This document shows positions 11,298 to 16,260 of a stretch of 64,000 nucleotides of DNA, one piece after another. A model generated the notes under the pieces. It had not been told where the DNA came from, ran no database searches, and saw nothing but the letters and a program-made list of their open reading frames with translations. Made by a program: the position numbers and the translations under genes. Within the stretch, counting starts at the first letter, position 1, and the number at the start of each line of letters is the position of its first letter. This stretch comes from Alkalidesulfovibrio alkalitolerans DSM 16529 (GTDB lineage: Bacteria > Desulfobacterota > Desulfovibrionia > Desulfovibrionales > Desulfovibrionaceae): the NCBI RefSeq assembly GCF_000422245.1, contig NZ_ATHI01000011.1:54817-118816 (forward strand), written 5' to 3'.

Positions 11298-12350
11298 ATG
11301 AAAAACAGCTTCGACCAGGCCTTGCTGGGCCACCTTCGCTGTCCCGCAAGCGGCGAGCTGCTCGAACTTCGCGTGTTCGCCGGGAGTCCTGCCGATGGCA
11401 TCGAGGCAGGGGTGCTCATTGCGCGGGGCAGGGGGCTTTTCTACCCCGTTATCGGTGGCGTTGCGCATCTTCTGCCCCATGCCACCCCGGCCATGGAGGC
11501 GTTTGCCCGTCAGTGGTCCGAAGAAATCGGTACGCTCGGAGGCCTTCGCCTGCCCGCCCCGGCCAGAGAATCCTCGCCCGAGGAGGAGCACTTCGAGACG
11601 AGCGGCATTGAGGGCGTCGGTGGCGACTCCTTCGACATCGGACGCAGGGCTGCTGCCGTGGACTTGGTCCCGCATGAGGTGGACAGCCTGCTGGACGTGG
11701 GTGCCGGGCCGGGCCTCTTCCTGGCGGATTTCGAAACCGCTCGCCCCCACGTCCGAACCCTGGGGCTTGAACGTTCCGGCGCTGCGATCCGCGCCGCCCG
11801 GTGCACCTCCCCAATCCTCATGGGCACCGCGAACCGCCTTCCCTTGCCCGACGAGGCCGTGGATTGCGTCGTCACCATGGAAATGCTCGAACATCTGCCC
11901 TCCGCAATCCACGAGCAGGGACTCCGCGAACTTGCCCGCGTGGCACGACGCTTCGTTCTCGTCAATGTCCCCTACCGCGAACGCCGCCTGCAGGCCGAAT
12001 GCCCCGATTGCGGCTGCGTCTTCAACCCCAGCTACCACCTTCGCTCCTACGACGGCGACGCCTTGATGCGGCTGCTGCCCGGTTTCCGGCCACTGACGCA
12101 GCGATTGCTGCCGCGTCGCGAAAACCTGCTCAAAGCCATGGCCGCGCCATGGCGCACGCGGGTCTTCGGCGGCTTCACCGATTACGCGATCTGCCCCCAA
12201 TGCCGCTACCGAAGGCCGTCCGTACCGGCGGGCACGCCAGCAACCCGGGCCGGGGGCTGGCGCTCGACGCTGCATGCCCTGGCCGCGCGGCTGCCCCGCG
12301 TGGACGTGCGTGGTGAAATCCTTGTCCTGTACGAACGGAAGCACGACTGA
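11298..12350 (+). CDS. SAM-dependent methyltransferase with zinc-ribbon segments
   Basis: 350 residues. The N-terminus (HLRCPASGELLEL...FYPVIGGVAHLLP) is Trm112-like. A class I methyltransferase core follows, with the SAM-binding VDSLLDVGAGPGLFL and the acidic loop DCVVTMEMLEHLPS. Two cysteine pairs, CPDCGC and CPQC, bracket a later segment and probably bind zinc. This arrangement is typical of small-molecule or surface-polysaccharide methyltransferases, but the substrate cannot be told. The ATG at 11298 follows AAGGGA by six bases; an earlier ATG at 11283 lacks a good site. Convergent with the selenoprotein operon, whose last stop is 108 bp downstream. Confidence 0.75.
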   Translation: MKNSFDQALLGHLRCPASGELLELRVFAGSPADGIEAGVLIARGRGLFYPVIGGVAHLLPHATPAMEAFARQWSEEIGTLGGLRLPAPARESSPEEEHFETSGIEGVGGDSFDIGRRAAAVDLVPHEVDSLLDVGAGPGLFLADFETARPHVRTLGLERSGAAIRAARCTSPILMGTANRLPLPDEAVDCVVTMEMLEHLPSAIHEQGLRELARVARRFVLVNVPYRERRLQAECPDCGCVFNPSYHLRSYDGDALMRLLPGFRPLTQRLLPRRENLLKAMAAPWRTRVFGGFTDYAICPQCRYRRPSVPAGTPATRAGGWRSTLHALAARLPRVDVRGEILVLYERKHD

Positions 12351-12458
12351 GACCGGTTGGATGGCGTGTCGGGGGAGTAGGGGGAGCCTGTTTCCGCTTC
12401 TCGCTCGCTCTGCTTCAGGCCATGGGATCGTCACTTCGCTCCGACGCTCCCTGGCGCA

Positions 12459-12770
12459 TCAGCGGCCGAAGAGTCGGCCGAGCAACCCTCTTTTTTCCAG
12501 TTCGGGAAGCCCCAGGTGACGCCGGATGCAGGCTTCGAGTTCGTCCTCGGAAATGTCCGCGCCCTCGGTCACGATCTCATCGCCGACCATCACCGCTGGC
12601 GCGGCAGGCAGATCCAGTTCGAAATATTCGTCGCTCTGGTATTCCGCCATGGGCTTTGCGGTCACCTCGATCTGTACGTCGTATTTCGTGCCCAGCCTGG
12701 GCATCATGGCCTTGAAGTGCCTTCACGGCTTGCCGTTGGGCTCGTTGAGAAAAAACCTGACCATGAGCAT
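12459..12770 (-). CDS. Small thioredoxin/glutaredoxin-fold selenoprotein (Sec16)
   Basis: 103 residues if the in-frame TGA at 12725-12723 is read as selenocysteine. The frame reads MLMVRFFLNEPNGKP-Sec-RHFKAMMP and continues to a cis-proline-like segment LPAAPAVMVGDEIV, the pattern of a thioredoxin-fold redox protein with one active chalcogen. The ATG at 12770 has AAGGAG five bases upstream. The short downstream ATG at 12707 that a conventional caller would use has no ribosome binding site and would cut off the beta-alpha-beta start of the fold. A hairpin (12689-12703) follows the TGA at 19 nt. There is no signal peptide, so it is cytoplasmic. It starts 17 bp after the rhodanese-DsbD gene in the same operon, suggesting a redox partner role. 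Confidence 0.78.
12689..12703 (-). promoter_or_regulatory. Putative bacterial SECIS hairpin for Sec16
   Basis: TGCCC-AGGCT-GGGCA on the minus strand. The apical loop begins 24 nt after the UGA and carries G within its first two bases, as expected of a SelB-binding SECIS. The stem may also close one more A-T pair, leaving a GGC triloop. Confidence 0.6.
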
Positions 12771-12787
12771 GCGTTCTCCTTCGCGGC

Positions 12788-14521
12788 TCATTCGAGCACG
12801 CTTTCCATGCGCTTCACGAATTCCTCGGGCGGCAGATAGTCCACGAGTCGAAGCTCGGGCCTCTCGTGGCCGTCCCGATCCACAAAGACCACCGTGGGCA
12901 CGCCCCTGACCGCGTACTCGCTCACGAGCCGCTCGTGCAGCGGATCGCCGCCCCTGGTCAGGTCCACCTTGATCATGACCATCTTCTCGTCGGCCAGACG
13001 CACCACGGCCGGATCGCGGAAGGTCCGCTCGTCGAGTTCCCGGCAGGGCGTGCACCACGCGGCCGAGAAGTCGATGATAACGGGCCTGCCGTGCTCCCTG
13101 GCCTGGGCCAGGAGGTCGTCGGAATAGGTCTGCCAGAACACGGCCGGTCCCCGGAAAAGCAACGGTCCGGCGAGGACGATCGCCAGGACCACGCCGCCCA
13201 CGCCAACTGCGGCCTTGATCGCGCCAAAGACCCTGAAGTTCGCCGTGGCCCTGTCGATCCAGCCCAGATGCAGCCCGGCGCCCAGCGCCACAACGGCCAG
13301 GGCGAGAAGTCCGGTCGTCTCGGAGAGAAGCGGCCGCACGAAATACGCGGCCATGCCCACCAGCACCCAGCCCATGAGCTTTCGCACCCACAACATCCAC
13401 TCCCCGGACCGGGGCAGCTTCTCCAGCCTGCCCGAGAACATCGCCAGGACGAAGAGCGGCAGGCCGAGCCCAAGGCTCAGGGTGAAGAAGACCAGGAAAC
13501 CGAGCCACGGGCTGCCCAGGCTCGCCACCCAGGTCAGAAGGCCGAGCACGAACGGCCCGAGGCACGGCGCGGCCACCACGCCGAGCGTCAGCCCCATGAA
13601 GAAGGTGCCGAAATGGCCCGTGTAGGATTTGGACGCGGCCCGAGTGAGCCCCGAGGGGAGCCTGATCTCCCACAGCCCGAACAGGCTGGCCGCGAACGCG
13701 AGCAGAAGTCCGGCCACGGCCAGGAGCACGGCCGGGTTCTGGAGCAGCGCGCCCATCATCCCGCCGGTCAGCGCGGCGGCCACGCCGAGGAGCGAGTTCA
13801 TCAGGGCGAGCCCGAGCATGTACAGCGCGCCGTGCGCCACGAGGCTGCCCCGGCCCTGGCCGCTGCGGCCGCCGAAATAAGAGACCGTGATGGGGATGAG
13901 CGGATAGACGCACGGGGTCAGGTTCAGGGCCATGCCGCCCAGGAAGATGCCGAGCAGGGTCCAGACCATCCCCCAGCCGTAGAGCGGGCCGGGCGTGGGG
14001 TCCTCGGATGCGGCTTCACGGTGTGCGGCGTCGAAGGCCACCGGCAGCCCGGCGGCCTGCCAGTCGGGGTATCCATACGGATCGCGAAAGACGTTGCGGT
14101 AACCGAGGGAAACGGCCACACGGGCCGCAGAGTCGCTGCGGACTCAGGTCAGGCCCGCTCAGTAGAAGACGACGGGCCGTTCCTTGTCGGGTCCGAGCAT
14201 CCCGGCCAGTTCGCCCTTCTTGCGCCAGCGCGCGAAGGCCGTGGGCTCCATGGGAAAGAGGACCGCGCCCTCGATGTGTCCGGCGTGAAACTCCCAATCC
14301 TGGCGCGTGTCCACGAGGAGAAGGCCCGTCTCGTCGGCCCGCGCGTACCATTCGGCAAGTTCGACGGTCGTGACCAGGCGATATCCGCCCTCGCGGGCCT
14401 CGGCCACCGCGTCGTCCCAGGTGGCCGTCTTCGGGGTCACGGCCCTGTTGGTCAGCCACAGCGCGGTCACGGTCACGAACACGGCCAGGACCGCCACGAG
14501 CGTTGTTTTCGTGGTACGCAT
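12788..14521 (-). CDS. Rhodanese-DsbD fusion selenoprotein with two Sec (UAGLTU)
   Basis: 577 residues if the TGA codons at 14161-14159 and 14146-14144 are selenocysteine (positions 121 and 126). Residues 7-25 form a signal anchor. A rhodanese domain (30-155) has LVDTRQDWEFHAGHIEGA and an active-site loop PVVFY-U-AGLT-U-VRSD, where other rhodaneses have C-x-G-x-x-C. It then continues LGYRNVFRDPYGYPDW without interruption. From ~170 to ~440 is the DsbD membrane domain, with its two cysteines in LTPCVYPLIP and APCLGPF. The C-terminal thioredoxin domain carries WCTPC. In E. coli DsbD an N-terminal immunoglobulin-like domain takes the electrons; here a selenol rhodanese occupies that place. The ATG at 14521 has GGGAGAAG upstream. 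Literal translation would give two separate proteins. Confidence 0.85.
14113..14127 (-). promoter_or_regulatory. Putative SECIS hairpin for Sec126
   Basis: CGGCC-CGTGT-GGCCG on the minus strand. The loop starts 21 nt after the second UGA and has G at its second base. It shares two stem bases with the hairpin of the first UGA, so the two structures are alternatives that a translating ribosome could resolve in turn. Confidence 0.55.
14125..14141 (-). promoter_or_regulatory. Putative SECIS hairpin for Sec121
   Basis: CCGCAG-CGACT-CTGCGG on the minus strand, a perfect 6-bp stem. The loop starts 23 nt after the first UGA and has G at its second base. It lies downstream of both UGA codons but is only 8 nt from the second, too close to serve that one. 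Confidence 0.6.
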
Positions 14522-14586
14522 CGTCTTCTCCCTTGTCTGCGGCTTCCAGGAGGCTGCCGACAAGCTTGCTTTTACAGGTCGGCCTC

Positions 14587-15033
14587 CTAGAGTCTTCCCT
14601 CACGCCGGAGCTTGGATATCAGGAACCGCGCGCCGGAGCGCGACAGCCCCGTGGCCTCGGCAAGCTCATCCACATCCGTTCCCTGCGCCGCGGCGCAGCG
14701 GATGACCTCGTCCTCGAGTTCTTCGAGCCAGTTCTCGAACAGCGTGAGAATTTCGGGATGCGCCACGGCCATGAGCTGTTTGGACTGGGCGACCTTGTCC
14801 ACGAGACTTTGGCACATTGCGGTTGGATCGACACCTTCGTCCATGCATTCGGCCAGTCAGAGATGGACCATGCCGACGACCTTGTCCTCGCCGGGCTCAC
14901 CGAGCATCTGTTCGATGAATTCCCGGCGCGCCTCGTCGTCCAGGAGCGGGAACACGGCGCGCGCGGCCCTGGCCACTGCCGCGGCCGCTTCCTTGGGTTC
15001 CAGCCGCGCGACGATGGCTTCGATCTCGTTCAT
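14587..15033 (-). CDS. Helical protein of unknown function, candidate selenoprotein (Sec59)
   Basis: 148 residues if the TGA at 14859-14857 is read through. The frame gives KVVGMVHL-Sec-LAECMDEG, with the candidate selenocysteine four residues before a cysteine (UxxxC) in a predicted helix. The rest is charged and helical. The C-terminal part (VDELAEATGLSRSGARFLIS) resembles a helix-turn-helix. The ATG at 15033 has AAGGAG eight bases upstream, whereas the ATG at 14844 just after the TGA has none, which argues for one protein rather than two. It is the second gene of the ArsR operon, 20 bp after arsR. I do not recognise a named family. The alternative is a recent nonsense mutation, but the same feature in both downstream genes makes recoding likelier. 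Confidence 0.62.
14827..14844 (-). promoter_or_regulatory. Putative SECIS hairpin for Sec59
   Basis: ATGGAC-GAAGGT-GTCGAT on the minus strand, with one G-G mismatch in a 6-bp stem. The loop begins 18 nt after the UGA and starts with G. It is the weakest of the six candidate hairpins. Confidence 0.4.
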
Positions 15034-15053
15034 GCGAATTCTCCTTGCGAGGG

Positions 15054-15386
15054 TCAAAAGCGTGTGCGTTCCGCTACGAGCTTGCCGGCCAGATCGCGCA
15101 TGGCCTCGATGACATCCACGGCCGCGATGCGGGTGAGGCCGTAGAGGACGAACGGGCCGCGCCGCTCCACGTCCACGAGCAGGGCACGTTTGAGCTCCCG
15201 CAGATGGTGCGAGACCAGGGGCTGCGAAAGACCCAGCTCCTCGACGATCTGGCTCACGGACTTCCTGCCGTGGCGCACGAAGAGAAGGATGCGCAGCCTG
15301 TTCTCGTCCGCCAGCGCCCGGGCCAGAAAGGCCACGTCCGCAAGATGCCGCTCCTGGGACTCAGGATGTTCGATTGGCGATGACAT
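15054..15386 (-). CDS. ArsR-family transcriptional regulator
   Basis: 110 residues. A winged helix-turn-helix is clear: ALADENRLRILLFV, SVSQIVEELGLSQPLVSHHL and the wing VERRGPFVLYGL. There is no cysteine anywhere, so it cannot use the arsenite-type cysteine trio; the effector may be another metal, a redox metabolite or a (seleno)persulfide. The ATG at 15386 has AAGGAG five bases upstream. It is the first gene of the selenoprotein operon and probably represses its own promoter through an AT-rich inverted repeat directly upstream. Confidence 0.87.
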   Translation of the reverse strand: MSSPIEHPESQERHLADVAFLARALADENRLRILLFVRHGRKSVSQIVEELGLSQPLVSHHLRELKRALLVDVERRGPFVLYGLTRIAAVDVIEAMRDLAGKLVAERTRF

Positions 15387-15404
15387 GCGGTCTCCTTGGC
15401 GCCG

Positions 15405-15457
15405 ACATAAACATATAAATCGACGCTAATATGTATGACAGGGCAGGGTGTTGTCAA
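15405..15457 (-). promoter_or_regulatory. Promoter and likely ArsR operator of the selenoprotein operon
   Basis: On the minus strand TTGACA (15457-15452), a 16-bp spacer and TACATA (15435-15430) form a good sigma-70 promoter. Overlapping and following it is an AT-rich imperfect inverted repeat ending in ACATA / TATGT (about 15412-15434), the usual appearance of an ArsR operator. Confidence 0.55.
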
Positions 15458-15504
15458 GGACGGACTCGAGAAAAGTCACGCGCTCCGTCCCAATCACGGA
15501 ACGG

Positions 15505-15518
15505 CCGCAACGCATCCG
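15505..15518 (+). repeat. Left copy of 14-bp direct repeat flanking parDE
   Basis: CCGCAACGCATCCG, repeated exactly at 16287-16300. The segment between holds parDE. Downstream, 15528-15610 contains a frame ending KLAEPQPVDTKIDNLW, perhaps a decayed gene end. Confidence 0.45.
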
Positions 15519-15644
15519 TTGCGCCTCGCCGTGCGGTTCTCCACGATCTCCAAGGGCATCAAGCTGGCCGAGCCGCAGCCGGTCGATACAAAGATTGACA
15601 ATCTATGGTAAGGGGATAATTTGGAAATGGATTGAATGAAAATG

Positions 15645-15690
15645 AGCTTTTCGCGGCAACGCCGCAGATGAGACTTTTTCAGCAGCCTGG
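15645..15690. repeat. Half copy of family A repeat
   Basis: Only the right arm is present (GCTTTTCGCGGCAACGCCGC through TTTTTCAGCAGCCTGG). The left arm is missing. Confidence 0.65.
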
Positions 15691-15713
15691 GATCCTTTCA
15701 AGGAGGCGAACAT

Positions 15714-15971
15714 ATGCACGTTTCACTGACGCCCGAGCTTGAGGCCAGGGTGCGGCAAAAGGTCGAGAGCGGCCTGTACAACAACGCGAGCGAGGTCATC
15801 CGCGAGGCGCTTCGGTTCATGGAGACGCATGAGCAACTGATCTACCAGATGAAGCTCGACGCCCTGCGCCGCGAGCTTGCCCCCGGCGCCGCCCAGGCGG
15901 AGAGCGGCCAGTTCGTTTCGGGCGGAGTCAGGGACATCCTTGCGGAGGCCAAGGCGATCCGCCATGGCTGA
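15714..15971 (+). CDS. parD: ParD-family antitoxin
   Basis: 85 residues. The N-terminus (MHVSLTPELEARVRQKVESG and YNNASEVIREALR) is the ribbon-helix-helix DNA-binding domain of ParD/CopG antitoxins. The disordered C-terminal half would wrap the toxin. AAGGAGG lies six bases before the ATG. It overlaps the toxin gene by 8 bp, a standard type II arrangement with autoregulation by the complex. Confidence 0.87.
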   Translation: MHVSLTPELEARVRQKVESGLYNNASEVIREALRFMETHEQLIYQMKLDALRRELAPGAAQAESGQFVSGGVRDILAEAKAIRHG

Positions 15972-16260
15972 AGTCCGCATCACACCGGCCGCCAAGACGC
16001 ACCTGCTCGACATATGGGCCTATACCGAACAGACCTGGGGCGAGGCCCGCGCGGACGCCTATCTTTTGGAGATCGAAGCGGTTTTCCGGCAACTCGCCGC
16101 CGCTCCGCTGCTCGGCAGGCCGCGCCCGGAAATCCGCGAGGGCTTTCGGTCGATTCCGGCCGGAAGTCATGTGATCTTCCACACCGTCACGCCAGACAAA
16201 GCATACGTGAACATAATCGGCGTATTGCACGCGAAAATGGATGTGTCCTCACGTCTGTGA
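15964..16260 (+). CDS. parE: ParE/RelE-family toxin
   Basis: 98 residues. The fold pattern is ITPAAKTHLLDIWAYTEQTW (helical hairpin), RPRPEIREGFRSIPAG and SHVIFH...VNIIGVLHAKMD, typical of ParE toxins, which poison DNA gyrase. All conserved segments are intact, so it is likely active. Gyrase subunit gyrA is encoded less than 1 kb away, which is probably coincidence. Confidence 0.85.
   Translation: MAEVRITPAAKTHLLDIWAYTEQTWGEARADAYLLEIEAVFRQLAAAPLLGRPRPEIREGFRSIPAGSHVIFHTVTPDKAYVNIIGVLHAKMDVSSRL

Follow-up and report, generated by a model that had tools for sequence, protein, structure and literature searches.

The 64,000-nucleotide stretch of Alkalidesulfovibrio alkalitolerans DSM 16529 DNA analysed here (contig NZ_ATHI01000011.1, positions 54,817 to 118,816; hereafter the window) carries four adjacent genes, tsoR, tsoA, tsoB and tsoC, which form a predicted selenoprotein operon that is real and well conserved and belongs to a type already known as tso. 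Four in-frame UGA codons interrupt three of these genes, and that they are read as selenocysteine (Sec) is strongly supported, as securely as sequence allows. The reading we favour, held tentatively and with slightly less than even confidence, is that this is a member of the tso operons whose four UGAs are predicted to be read as Sec and whose products likely relay electrons across the inner membrane by selenol chemistry. The gene coordinates and the UGA codon numbers 59, 121, 126 and 16 of the initial annotation were found as claimed, all on the minus strand (Table 1).

Family identity is clear from the NCBIfam models. TsoR scores 136.9 bits (NF045707, cut-off 115), TsoA 211.9 (NF045695, cut-off 170), TsoB 977.9 (NF045694, cut-off 805) and TsoC 150 (NF045708, cut-off 45). 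The UGAs of the window sit at the motifs LULAxC, UxxxxU and NEPxGxxU that mark Tso membership. The available passages of a 2026 review (PMC13188914) describe a Tso 'three selenoprotein operon' with TsoA, TsoB and TsoC, and cite Haft & Gwadz 2023 and, for the operon, Haft & Tolstoy 2025 (mSystems 10:e0141724). The operon here has the same Sec motifs and a gene order that matches many of its relatives, and nothing essential differs. Among the named loci, those of Desulfoprunum benzoelyticum (L030) and Desulforhopalus sp. IMCC35007 (L032) contain a complete tso operon. Since these models name all four proteins and the review describes the operon, the view that no system of this composition had been described must be given up. 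Our contribution is the palindrome at the tsoR promoter, the tsoR-like gene found upstream at tsoA loci and the changing set of downstream genes. The operator, the covariation in the tsoA hairpin and the fixed TsoR-TsoA pair do not appear in the passages of the review that were available.

Relatives were gathered in two ways. A contig scan with a TsoA alignment returned 158, of which the best 80 were kept; with the window this makes 81 loci. Site counts leave out L101, which is the window's own locus again, and L102, which has the same sequence as L024. The second sample, 395 genomes of the phylum, is drawn partly from the same genomes as the 80 loci; 10 fetched loci have the same sequence, and counts from the two samples overlap and are not additive. 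Among further loci checked, L105 and L127 come from the same genome, as do L107 and L133, so that each pair is counted once, and L138 is the window itself. For comparison with database proteins, the best 120 matches were listed for each of TsoA, TsoB and TsoC, and all protein match counts below refer to these.

The UGA codons are conserved well beyond what chance would give. At the TsoA site TGA is present in 80 of the 81 covering loci, window included. Both TsoB sites, 121 and 126, have TGA in 51 of 51 covering loci, and the TsoC site in 56 of 56. The phylum genomes agree: TsoA exceeds its cut-off in 33 of 395, and all 34 places over the cut-off contain one TGA. Counting every TsoA place listed in these genomes (52), 43 have the TGA and the 9 without it are weak partial matches. 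TsoB exceeds its cut-off in 22 of the 395 genomes, 21 of which also hold TsoA over the cut-off, with two TGA at 22 of 23 places and none at the remaining one. This conservation across relatives upholds the proposal that an ArsR-type gene is followed by genes for three predicted selenoproteins, with four Sec codons among them.

Two departures from the pattern were seen. Of the 81 loci only L098 (2446-2883) has a sense codon, AGA, in place of the TsoA UGA; no TGA is lost from its TsoB or TsoC, and the AGA is either a real change or a sequence error. The TsoB place without TGA (L144, genome G333) is a stand-alone gene, apparently a cysteine (Cys) form; the same genome has another TsoB with two UGAs. 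The start of the stand-alone protein resembles that of P0251, in which both sites are Cys, and the 8 kilobases examined at this locus contain no TsoR or TsoA match.

The initial annotation had held that its reading would be refuted by a genome lacking selABCD, or by homologues with neither Cys nor Sec at the sites and with the two halves as separate proteins. Neither was found: selA, selB, selD and tRNA-Sec are all in the genome, and at the sites of TsoB and TsoC homologues have either a Sec codon or Cys. In the 3.2 Mb assembly selA scores 613.8 bits, selB 389.7 and selD 346.4, all over cut-off; the selC-type tRNA-Sec scores 88.8 bits (cut-off 47), and selD itself carries one inner TGA. Six of the listed TsoB matches cover both sites, with Cys at both in four, glycine and arginine in one and a gap in one. 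For TsoC, 34 matches cover the site, with tryptophan (Trp) in 25, Cys in eight and arginine in one. All 13 TsoA matches that cover the site have Trp, and none of the 13 has Cys. Co-occurrence with selA adds little: selA is found in all TsoA genomes but one (32 of 33; the exception is 62% complete) and is nearly uninformative because 355 of the 395 genomes have it. In the family to which the window belongs, 2 of 59 genomes have TsoA, one of them its own, and the operon is therefore patchy there.

One alternative is that the UGAs are true stops in split or decaying genes, or that UGA is translated as Trp, the latter considered on account of the Trp residues. Most of the listed database matches are indeed fragments that start past the UGA, and some gene calls place Trp at the site; P0006-P0017 and P0126-P0131, for example, come from metagenomes, and their Trp at the Sec site most likely reflects gene calling with another translation code. 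The DNA of the loci, over dozens of them, has TGA and never TGG at the sites, and UGA serves as the terminal stop of tsoR, tsoB and tsoC in the same operon. We rejected read-through as Trp, and the Trp proteins are most likely products of other-code gene calls. The Cys homologues of TsoB and TsoC, together with the codon fixation and stem covariation described next, also speak against this alternative, which we regard as having almost no chance of being correct.

Because folding energies compared with shuffles were weak, codon fixation and covariation were also tested. Codon entropy was computed for those residues that at least 85% of loci share, and the 14 codons after a UGA were compared with the rest of the gene by a permutation test. 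Mean normalised codon entropy after the UGA was 0.486 versus 0.843 elsewhere for tsoA (10 versus 36 columns, p 1e-4), 0.474 versus 0.803 for tsoB (16 versus 245 columns, p 5e-5) and 0.437 versus 0.812 for tsoC (6 versus 32 columns, p 0.0011).

In tsoA the constraint extends to base pairing. The stem pair formed by base 2 of codon 65 and base 3 of codon 69 is G-C in 49 and A-U in 31 of the 80 loci, with no exception. Control codons 50, 63 and 74 gave p values of 0.19, 0.47 and 0.04. On a TsoA tree built with residue 65 masked, the pair switches six times, and at least four of the switches are forced by supported branches. In 15 further genomes it is Watson-Crick in 13 and G-U in 2, and of three distant TsoA-like genes L123 keeps the covarying pair. 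Codon fixation in all three genes, and in tsoA this covariation as well, support a predicted bacterial selenocysteine insertion sequence (bSECIS) element after each UGA.

The fixed stretch forms a hairpin of at least five pairs in 80 of 80 tsoA, 49 of 51 tsoB and 54 of 56 tsoC loci. The hairpins reported in the initial annotation are present, but in the window they start 16 (tsoB codon 121), 17 (tsoA) and 23 (tsoC) nucleotides past the first base of the UGA, rather than 18-24 throughout. In tsoB, hairpin and second UGA (codon 126) overlap. No hairpin of its own stands out for this UGA in the hairpin analysis, so its support is weaker; a single tsoB hairpin may serve both codons.

The protein that would give the proposed relay its shape is TsoB. 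Its domains score above the Pfam cut-offs (PF00581, 49.1 bits, cut-off 22.2; PF02683, 132.7 bits, cut-off 27.1; and PF13899). The rhodanese-DsbD fusion named in the initial annotation has both of those domains, to which must be added a third that had gone unnamed, a C-terminal thioredoxin domain with WCTPC. Cys 204 is present in 49 of 49 and Cys 320 in 47 of 48 covering loci, and Cys 490 and 493 in 43 of 43. A hydrophobic segment lies at the N-terminus (windows 3-28) and begins with R2 and K5; no hydrophobic segment was seen in TsoA, TsoC or TsoR. TsoB shares with DsbD a membrane domain with two Cys and a C-terminal thioredoxin domain. DsbD has an N-terminal domain of its own, in place of which TsoB has the two-Sec rhodanese domain, and against the full-length DsbD model (NF001419) TsoB scores 221.3 bits, below the cut-off of 330. 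Rhodanese sulfurtransferases have an active loop of the form C-x4-R. Sec 121 of TsoB aligns with the catalytic Cys of PF00581, but the loop is longer (U-x6-R, U121-AGLTUV-R128) and contains the second Sec.

TsoC and TsoA are smaller. The AlphaFold2 model of TsoC, with a predicted local distance difference test (pLDDT) of 90.6, has a thioredoxin fold. Compared with thioredoxin, SelW-like and ArsD folds, TsoC lacks CxxC and has a single Sec in GxxU (GKPU here), with G13 and UGA 16 present in 56 of 56 loci; its score against Pfam Thioredoxin_3 is below the cut-off. The TsoA model has a pLDDT of 81.3 and a predicted template modelling score of 0.41. For the N-terminal part of TsoA the fold search, which barely covered that region, gave no match.

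TsoR has an ArsR-type helix-turn-helix domain (PF01022, 52.5 bits, cut-off 22). The domain is common to BigR and other ArsR-type sensors; against BigR itself TsoR scores 40.1 bits, with a cut-off of 155, and TsoR has no conserved Cys. The initial annotation called it Cys-free, which is right for the window, but in relatives 49 of 79 TsoR carry one Cys or more, its position not being conserved. The 60% consensus of the 79 contains no Cys, and the conserved Cys metal site of ArsR/SmtB metalloregulators is missing, in a comparison that covered sites with Cys.

Upstream of tsoR, most loci have a palindrome of the form ACATATAAA-N6-TTTATATGT, which we predict to be the TsoR operator. It scores at least 15 of 18 in 50 of 77 loci, compared with a maximum of 14 in 385 single-base shuffles, the consensus having been drawn from the same upstream regions. 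In several of the loci without it, thioredoxin reductase or another gene precedes tsoR. The copy in the window covers the -10 of the tsoR promoter, a sigma-70-like site that is the only promoter-like site in 12300-15700 (0.3 expected). It is the sole copy in the genome at up to three mismatches, and a regulon search of the whole genome returned only the tsoR site. Behind this promoter the genes follow one another with intergenic gaps of 20 (tsoR/tsoA), 65 (tsoA/tsoB) and 17 (tsoB/tsoC) nucleotides, and a purine-rich AAGGAG/AAGGGAG stretch lies 5' of all four starts, examined at the upstream starts.

The most constant part of the gene neighbourhood is the TsoR-TsoA pair. In 78 of the 80 loci tsoR lies upstream of tsoA. 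The exceptions are L085, where tsoA starts 93 nucleotides from the contig end, and L072, which has no tsoR match; there the frame just upstream of tsoA shows an ArsR-like fragment. The pairing also extends to further loci: a tsoR-like gene lies upstream in 21 of 21 with TsoA (L104-L113) or a weaker TsoA-like gene (L114-L123, L145). Five of these repeat the 80, leaving 16 of 16 new loci with the gene. A VTT-domain-type gene stands between the tsoR-like and tsoA-like genes in L118, L119 and L145.

Downstream and nearby genes change from locus to locus, tsoB and/or tsoC being among them. On the same strand, a DsrE-like neighbour (DsrE_a query) occurs in 12 of 80 loci, an SQR-like neighbour in 12 of 80 (two more than 4 kilobases away) and a thioredoxin reductase with at least 66% identity in 8 of 80. 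Three of 11 thioredoxin-reductase matches, at L043, L064 and L054, were weak (24-36% identity) and were left out of the count, and DsrE_c-query matches at L068 and L063 overlap ArsM matches and are likely spurious. Thioredoxin-like TsoX-type proteins, TsoX being named by its motif with reference to the review, are found in 10 of 80 loci. Genes of fatty-acid-hydroxylase type occur in 15 of 80, GcvH-related genes in 5 of 80 and TauE in 5 of 80, four of the last among same-strand neighbours.

Some neighbours and distant relatives deserve mention in their own right. At L086 (6508-6816), and similarly in L090, a DsrE-family gene near tsoA has an in-frame UGA before G-x-C (UGVC) and likely encodes a further selenoprotein; the DsrE-like frame of L040 and L053 also meets a UGA at that place. 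The TsoA-like proteins of L118 and L119 have the UGA at another place (MVERUMQMC). In L118 and L145 the TsoA-like gene lies beside genes that by eye resemble ArsM-type genes. In L114, L116 and L120 the matched part of the TsoA-like gene has no Sec codon, and an ArsR-type gene lies next to it; an XdhC-type gene follows in L116 and a DGC-domain gene in L114. In the window, a short plus-strand gene pair upstream of tsoR (15715-16250) resembles, by eye, a toxin-antitoxin pair of ParD/ParE type.

The trans-envelope selenol pathway proposed in the initial annotation, like any ligand of TsoR, is still an inference. With these parts, a relay could work as follows. TsoR would sit on the palindrome over the -10 of its own promoter and be released as sulfane sulfur or a related oxidant builds up. 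Sec would be inserted at the UGAs by way of the genome's machinery genes and the constrained hairpins. Electrons would start from the thioredoxin reductase of the cytoplasm, whose gene lies nearby in some relatives, and pass to a thioredoxin or TsoC and then to the membrane Cys 204 and 320 of TsoB. From these they would reach Cys 490 and 493 of the thioredoxin domain and then the di-Sec pair 121/126 of the rhodanese domain, which would reduce or strip persulfide-type sulfur in the periplasm. TsoA would be a cytosolic selenol partner, either to TsoR or to the relay. Judging from what is known of DsbD and rhodanese and from the neighbours, we think sulfane sulfur the likeliest substrate, with metalloid handling close behind.

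Several observations weigh against this reading. The direction of the electrons, the substrate and the topology are inferred with DsbD as the model. A TsoB match is absent in 28 of 80 loci, some of these from contig ends, and because of this the relay is not the operon's constant part. At the RNA level, folding energies relative to synonymous shuffles are weak (mean z -0.75, -1.21, -0.33 and -0.80, where controls reach -0.5), the distant TsoA-like genes L121 and L122 break the covarying pair in the alignment, and an Rfam search of 12000-16000 gave chance matches only and no credible family. One TsoA has AGA at the Sec site (L098), and a terminator scan found none at the 3' end of the operon. 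Finally, ArsM-like genes near 12 of the 80 loci point to metalloids, not sulfur.

This last point leads to the alternative that the operon handles metalloids or organometals, with ArsR-type control, ArsM-type genes nearby and an ArsD-like role for TsoC as a chaperone with a single selenol. The ArsM-type genes seen by eye beside TsoA-like genes fit this idea, as does a Foldseek search with the TsoC model, which ranks ArsD second and ninth (E near 1e-3 and 2e-3). Ordinary thioredoxins come out just as high, however, and only 7 of the 12 ArsM genes are on the same strand. TsoR has no conserved Cys, and the window's operon contains no ArsM-like gene. We consider metalloid handling unlikely.

A selenium-carrier role is a further alternative, in which Tso proteins would deliver the element as such, in the form of perselenide or selenide, to SelD. 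Chalcogens are handled by proteins of the rhodanese and DsrE families, and a complete selD with its own in-frame UGA follows tsoA in the gene row of L042 and L048 (in L048 found via TIGR00476). These are just two of the 80 loci, and genomes with selA are far commoner than those with TsoA over the cut-off (355 versus 33 of 395). Such a role is highly improbable.

The constancy of the TsoR-TsoA pair suggests a different division of labour, in which these two proteins would form a two-part sensing switch whose effectors, TsoB, TsoC and the products of the other genes, can be exchanged. The signal would be sensed by TsoA, which has Sec 59, Cys 63 and Cys 74 and a C-terminus resembling a helix-turn-helix, and repression would change as a result. 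We think it doubtful that the operon works in this way. The boldest form of the idea makes TsoA a selenol sensor because the pair, and not TsoB, is the constant part: TsoR, without a conserved Cys, would have handed the chemistry to TsoA, a selenocysteine-based transcriptional sensor, and different selenoprotein redox cassettes would attach to the pair as a constant core. That, too, has a low probability in our estimate. Among the literature matches listed, titles and abstract openings yielded no paper on a Sec-using bacterial transcription switch.

Table 1. Features of the tso operon in the window (positions in window coordinates)
Feature	Position	Strand	Description	Models or support
tsoR	15386-15054	minus	ArsR/SmtB-type predicted repressor, 110 amino acids	NF045707, PF01022
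tsoA	15033-14587	minus	Helical predicted selenoprotein, 148 amino acids, LULAEC motif, C-terminal helix-turn-helix-like part	NF045695
tsoB	14521-12788	minus	577 amino acids: N-terminal membrane anchor, UxxxxU rhodanese, DsbD-type membrane and C-terminal thioredoxin domains	
tsoC	12770-12459	minus	Thioredoxin-fold predicted selenoprotein, 103 amino acids, NEPNGKPU motif; alternative start 12764	
UGA, codon 59 of tsoA	14859-14857	minus	Predicted Sec	
UGA, codon 121 of tsoB	14161-14159	minus	Predicted Sec at the place of the rhodanese catalytic Cys	
UGA, codon 126 of tsoB	14146-14144	minus	Predicted Sec	
UGA, codon 16 of tsoC	12725-12723	minus	Predicted Sec	
Hairpin of tsoA	14825-14842	minus	bSECIS-type	Stem covariation; at least 5 pairs in 80/80 loci
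Hairpin of tsoB	14130-14145	minus	GAGTC-N6-GACTC, likely bSECIS	Alternative pairings compete in the window
Hairpin of tsoC	12690-12702	minus	GCCC-AGGCT-GGGC, bSECIS-type	CCC and AGG codons fixed
Palindrome	15411-15434	minus	ACATATTAGCGTCGATTTATATGT, predicted TsoR operator	Upstream-region scoring, genome scan
Promoter	15428-15457	minus	Sigma-70-like, TTGACA-18-CATATT	-10 inside the palindrome

With four predicted Sec residues in three proteins, the operon may show which selenium chemistry repays its cost to anaerobes. Its function can be tested directly by way of whatever releases TsoR, given the predicted operator and the fixed TsoR-TsoA pair. If TsoA should prove to be a sensor, the use of selenocysteine would extend from catalysis to gene control.

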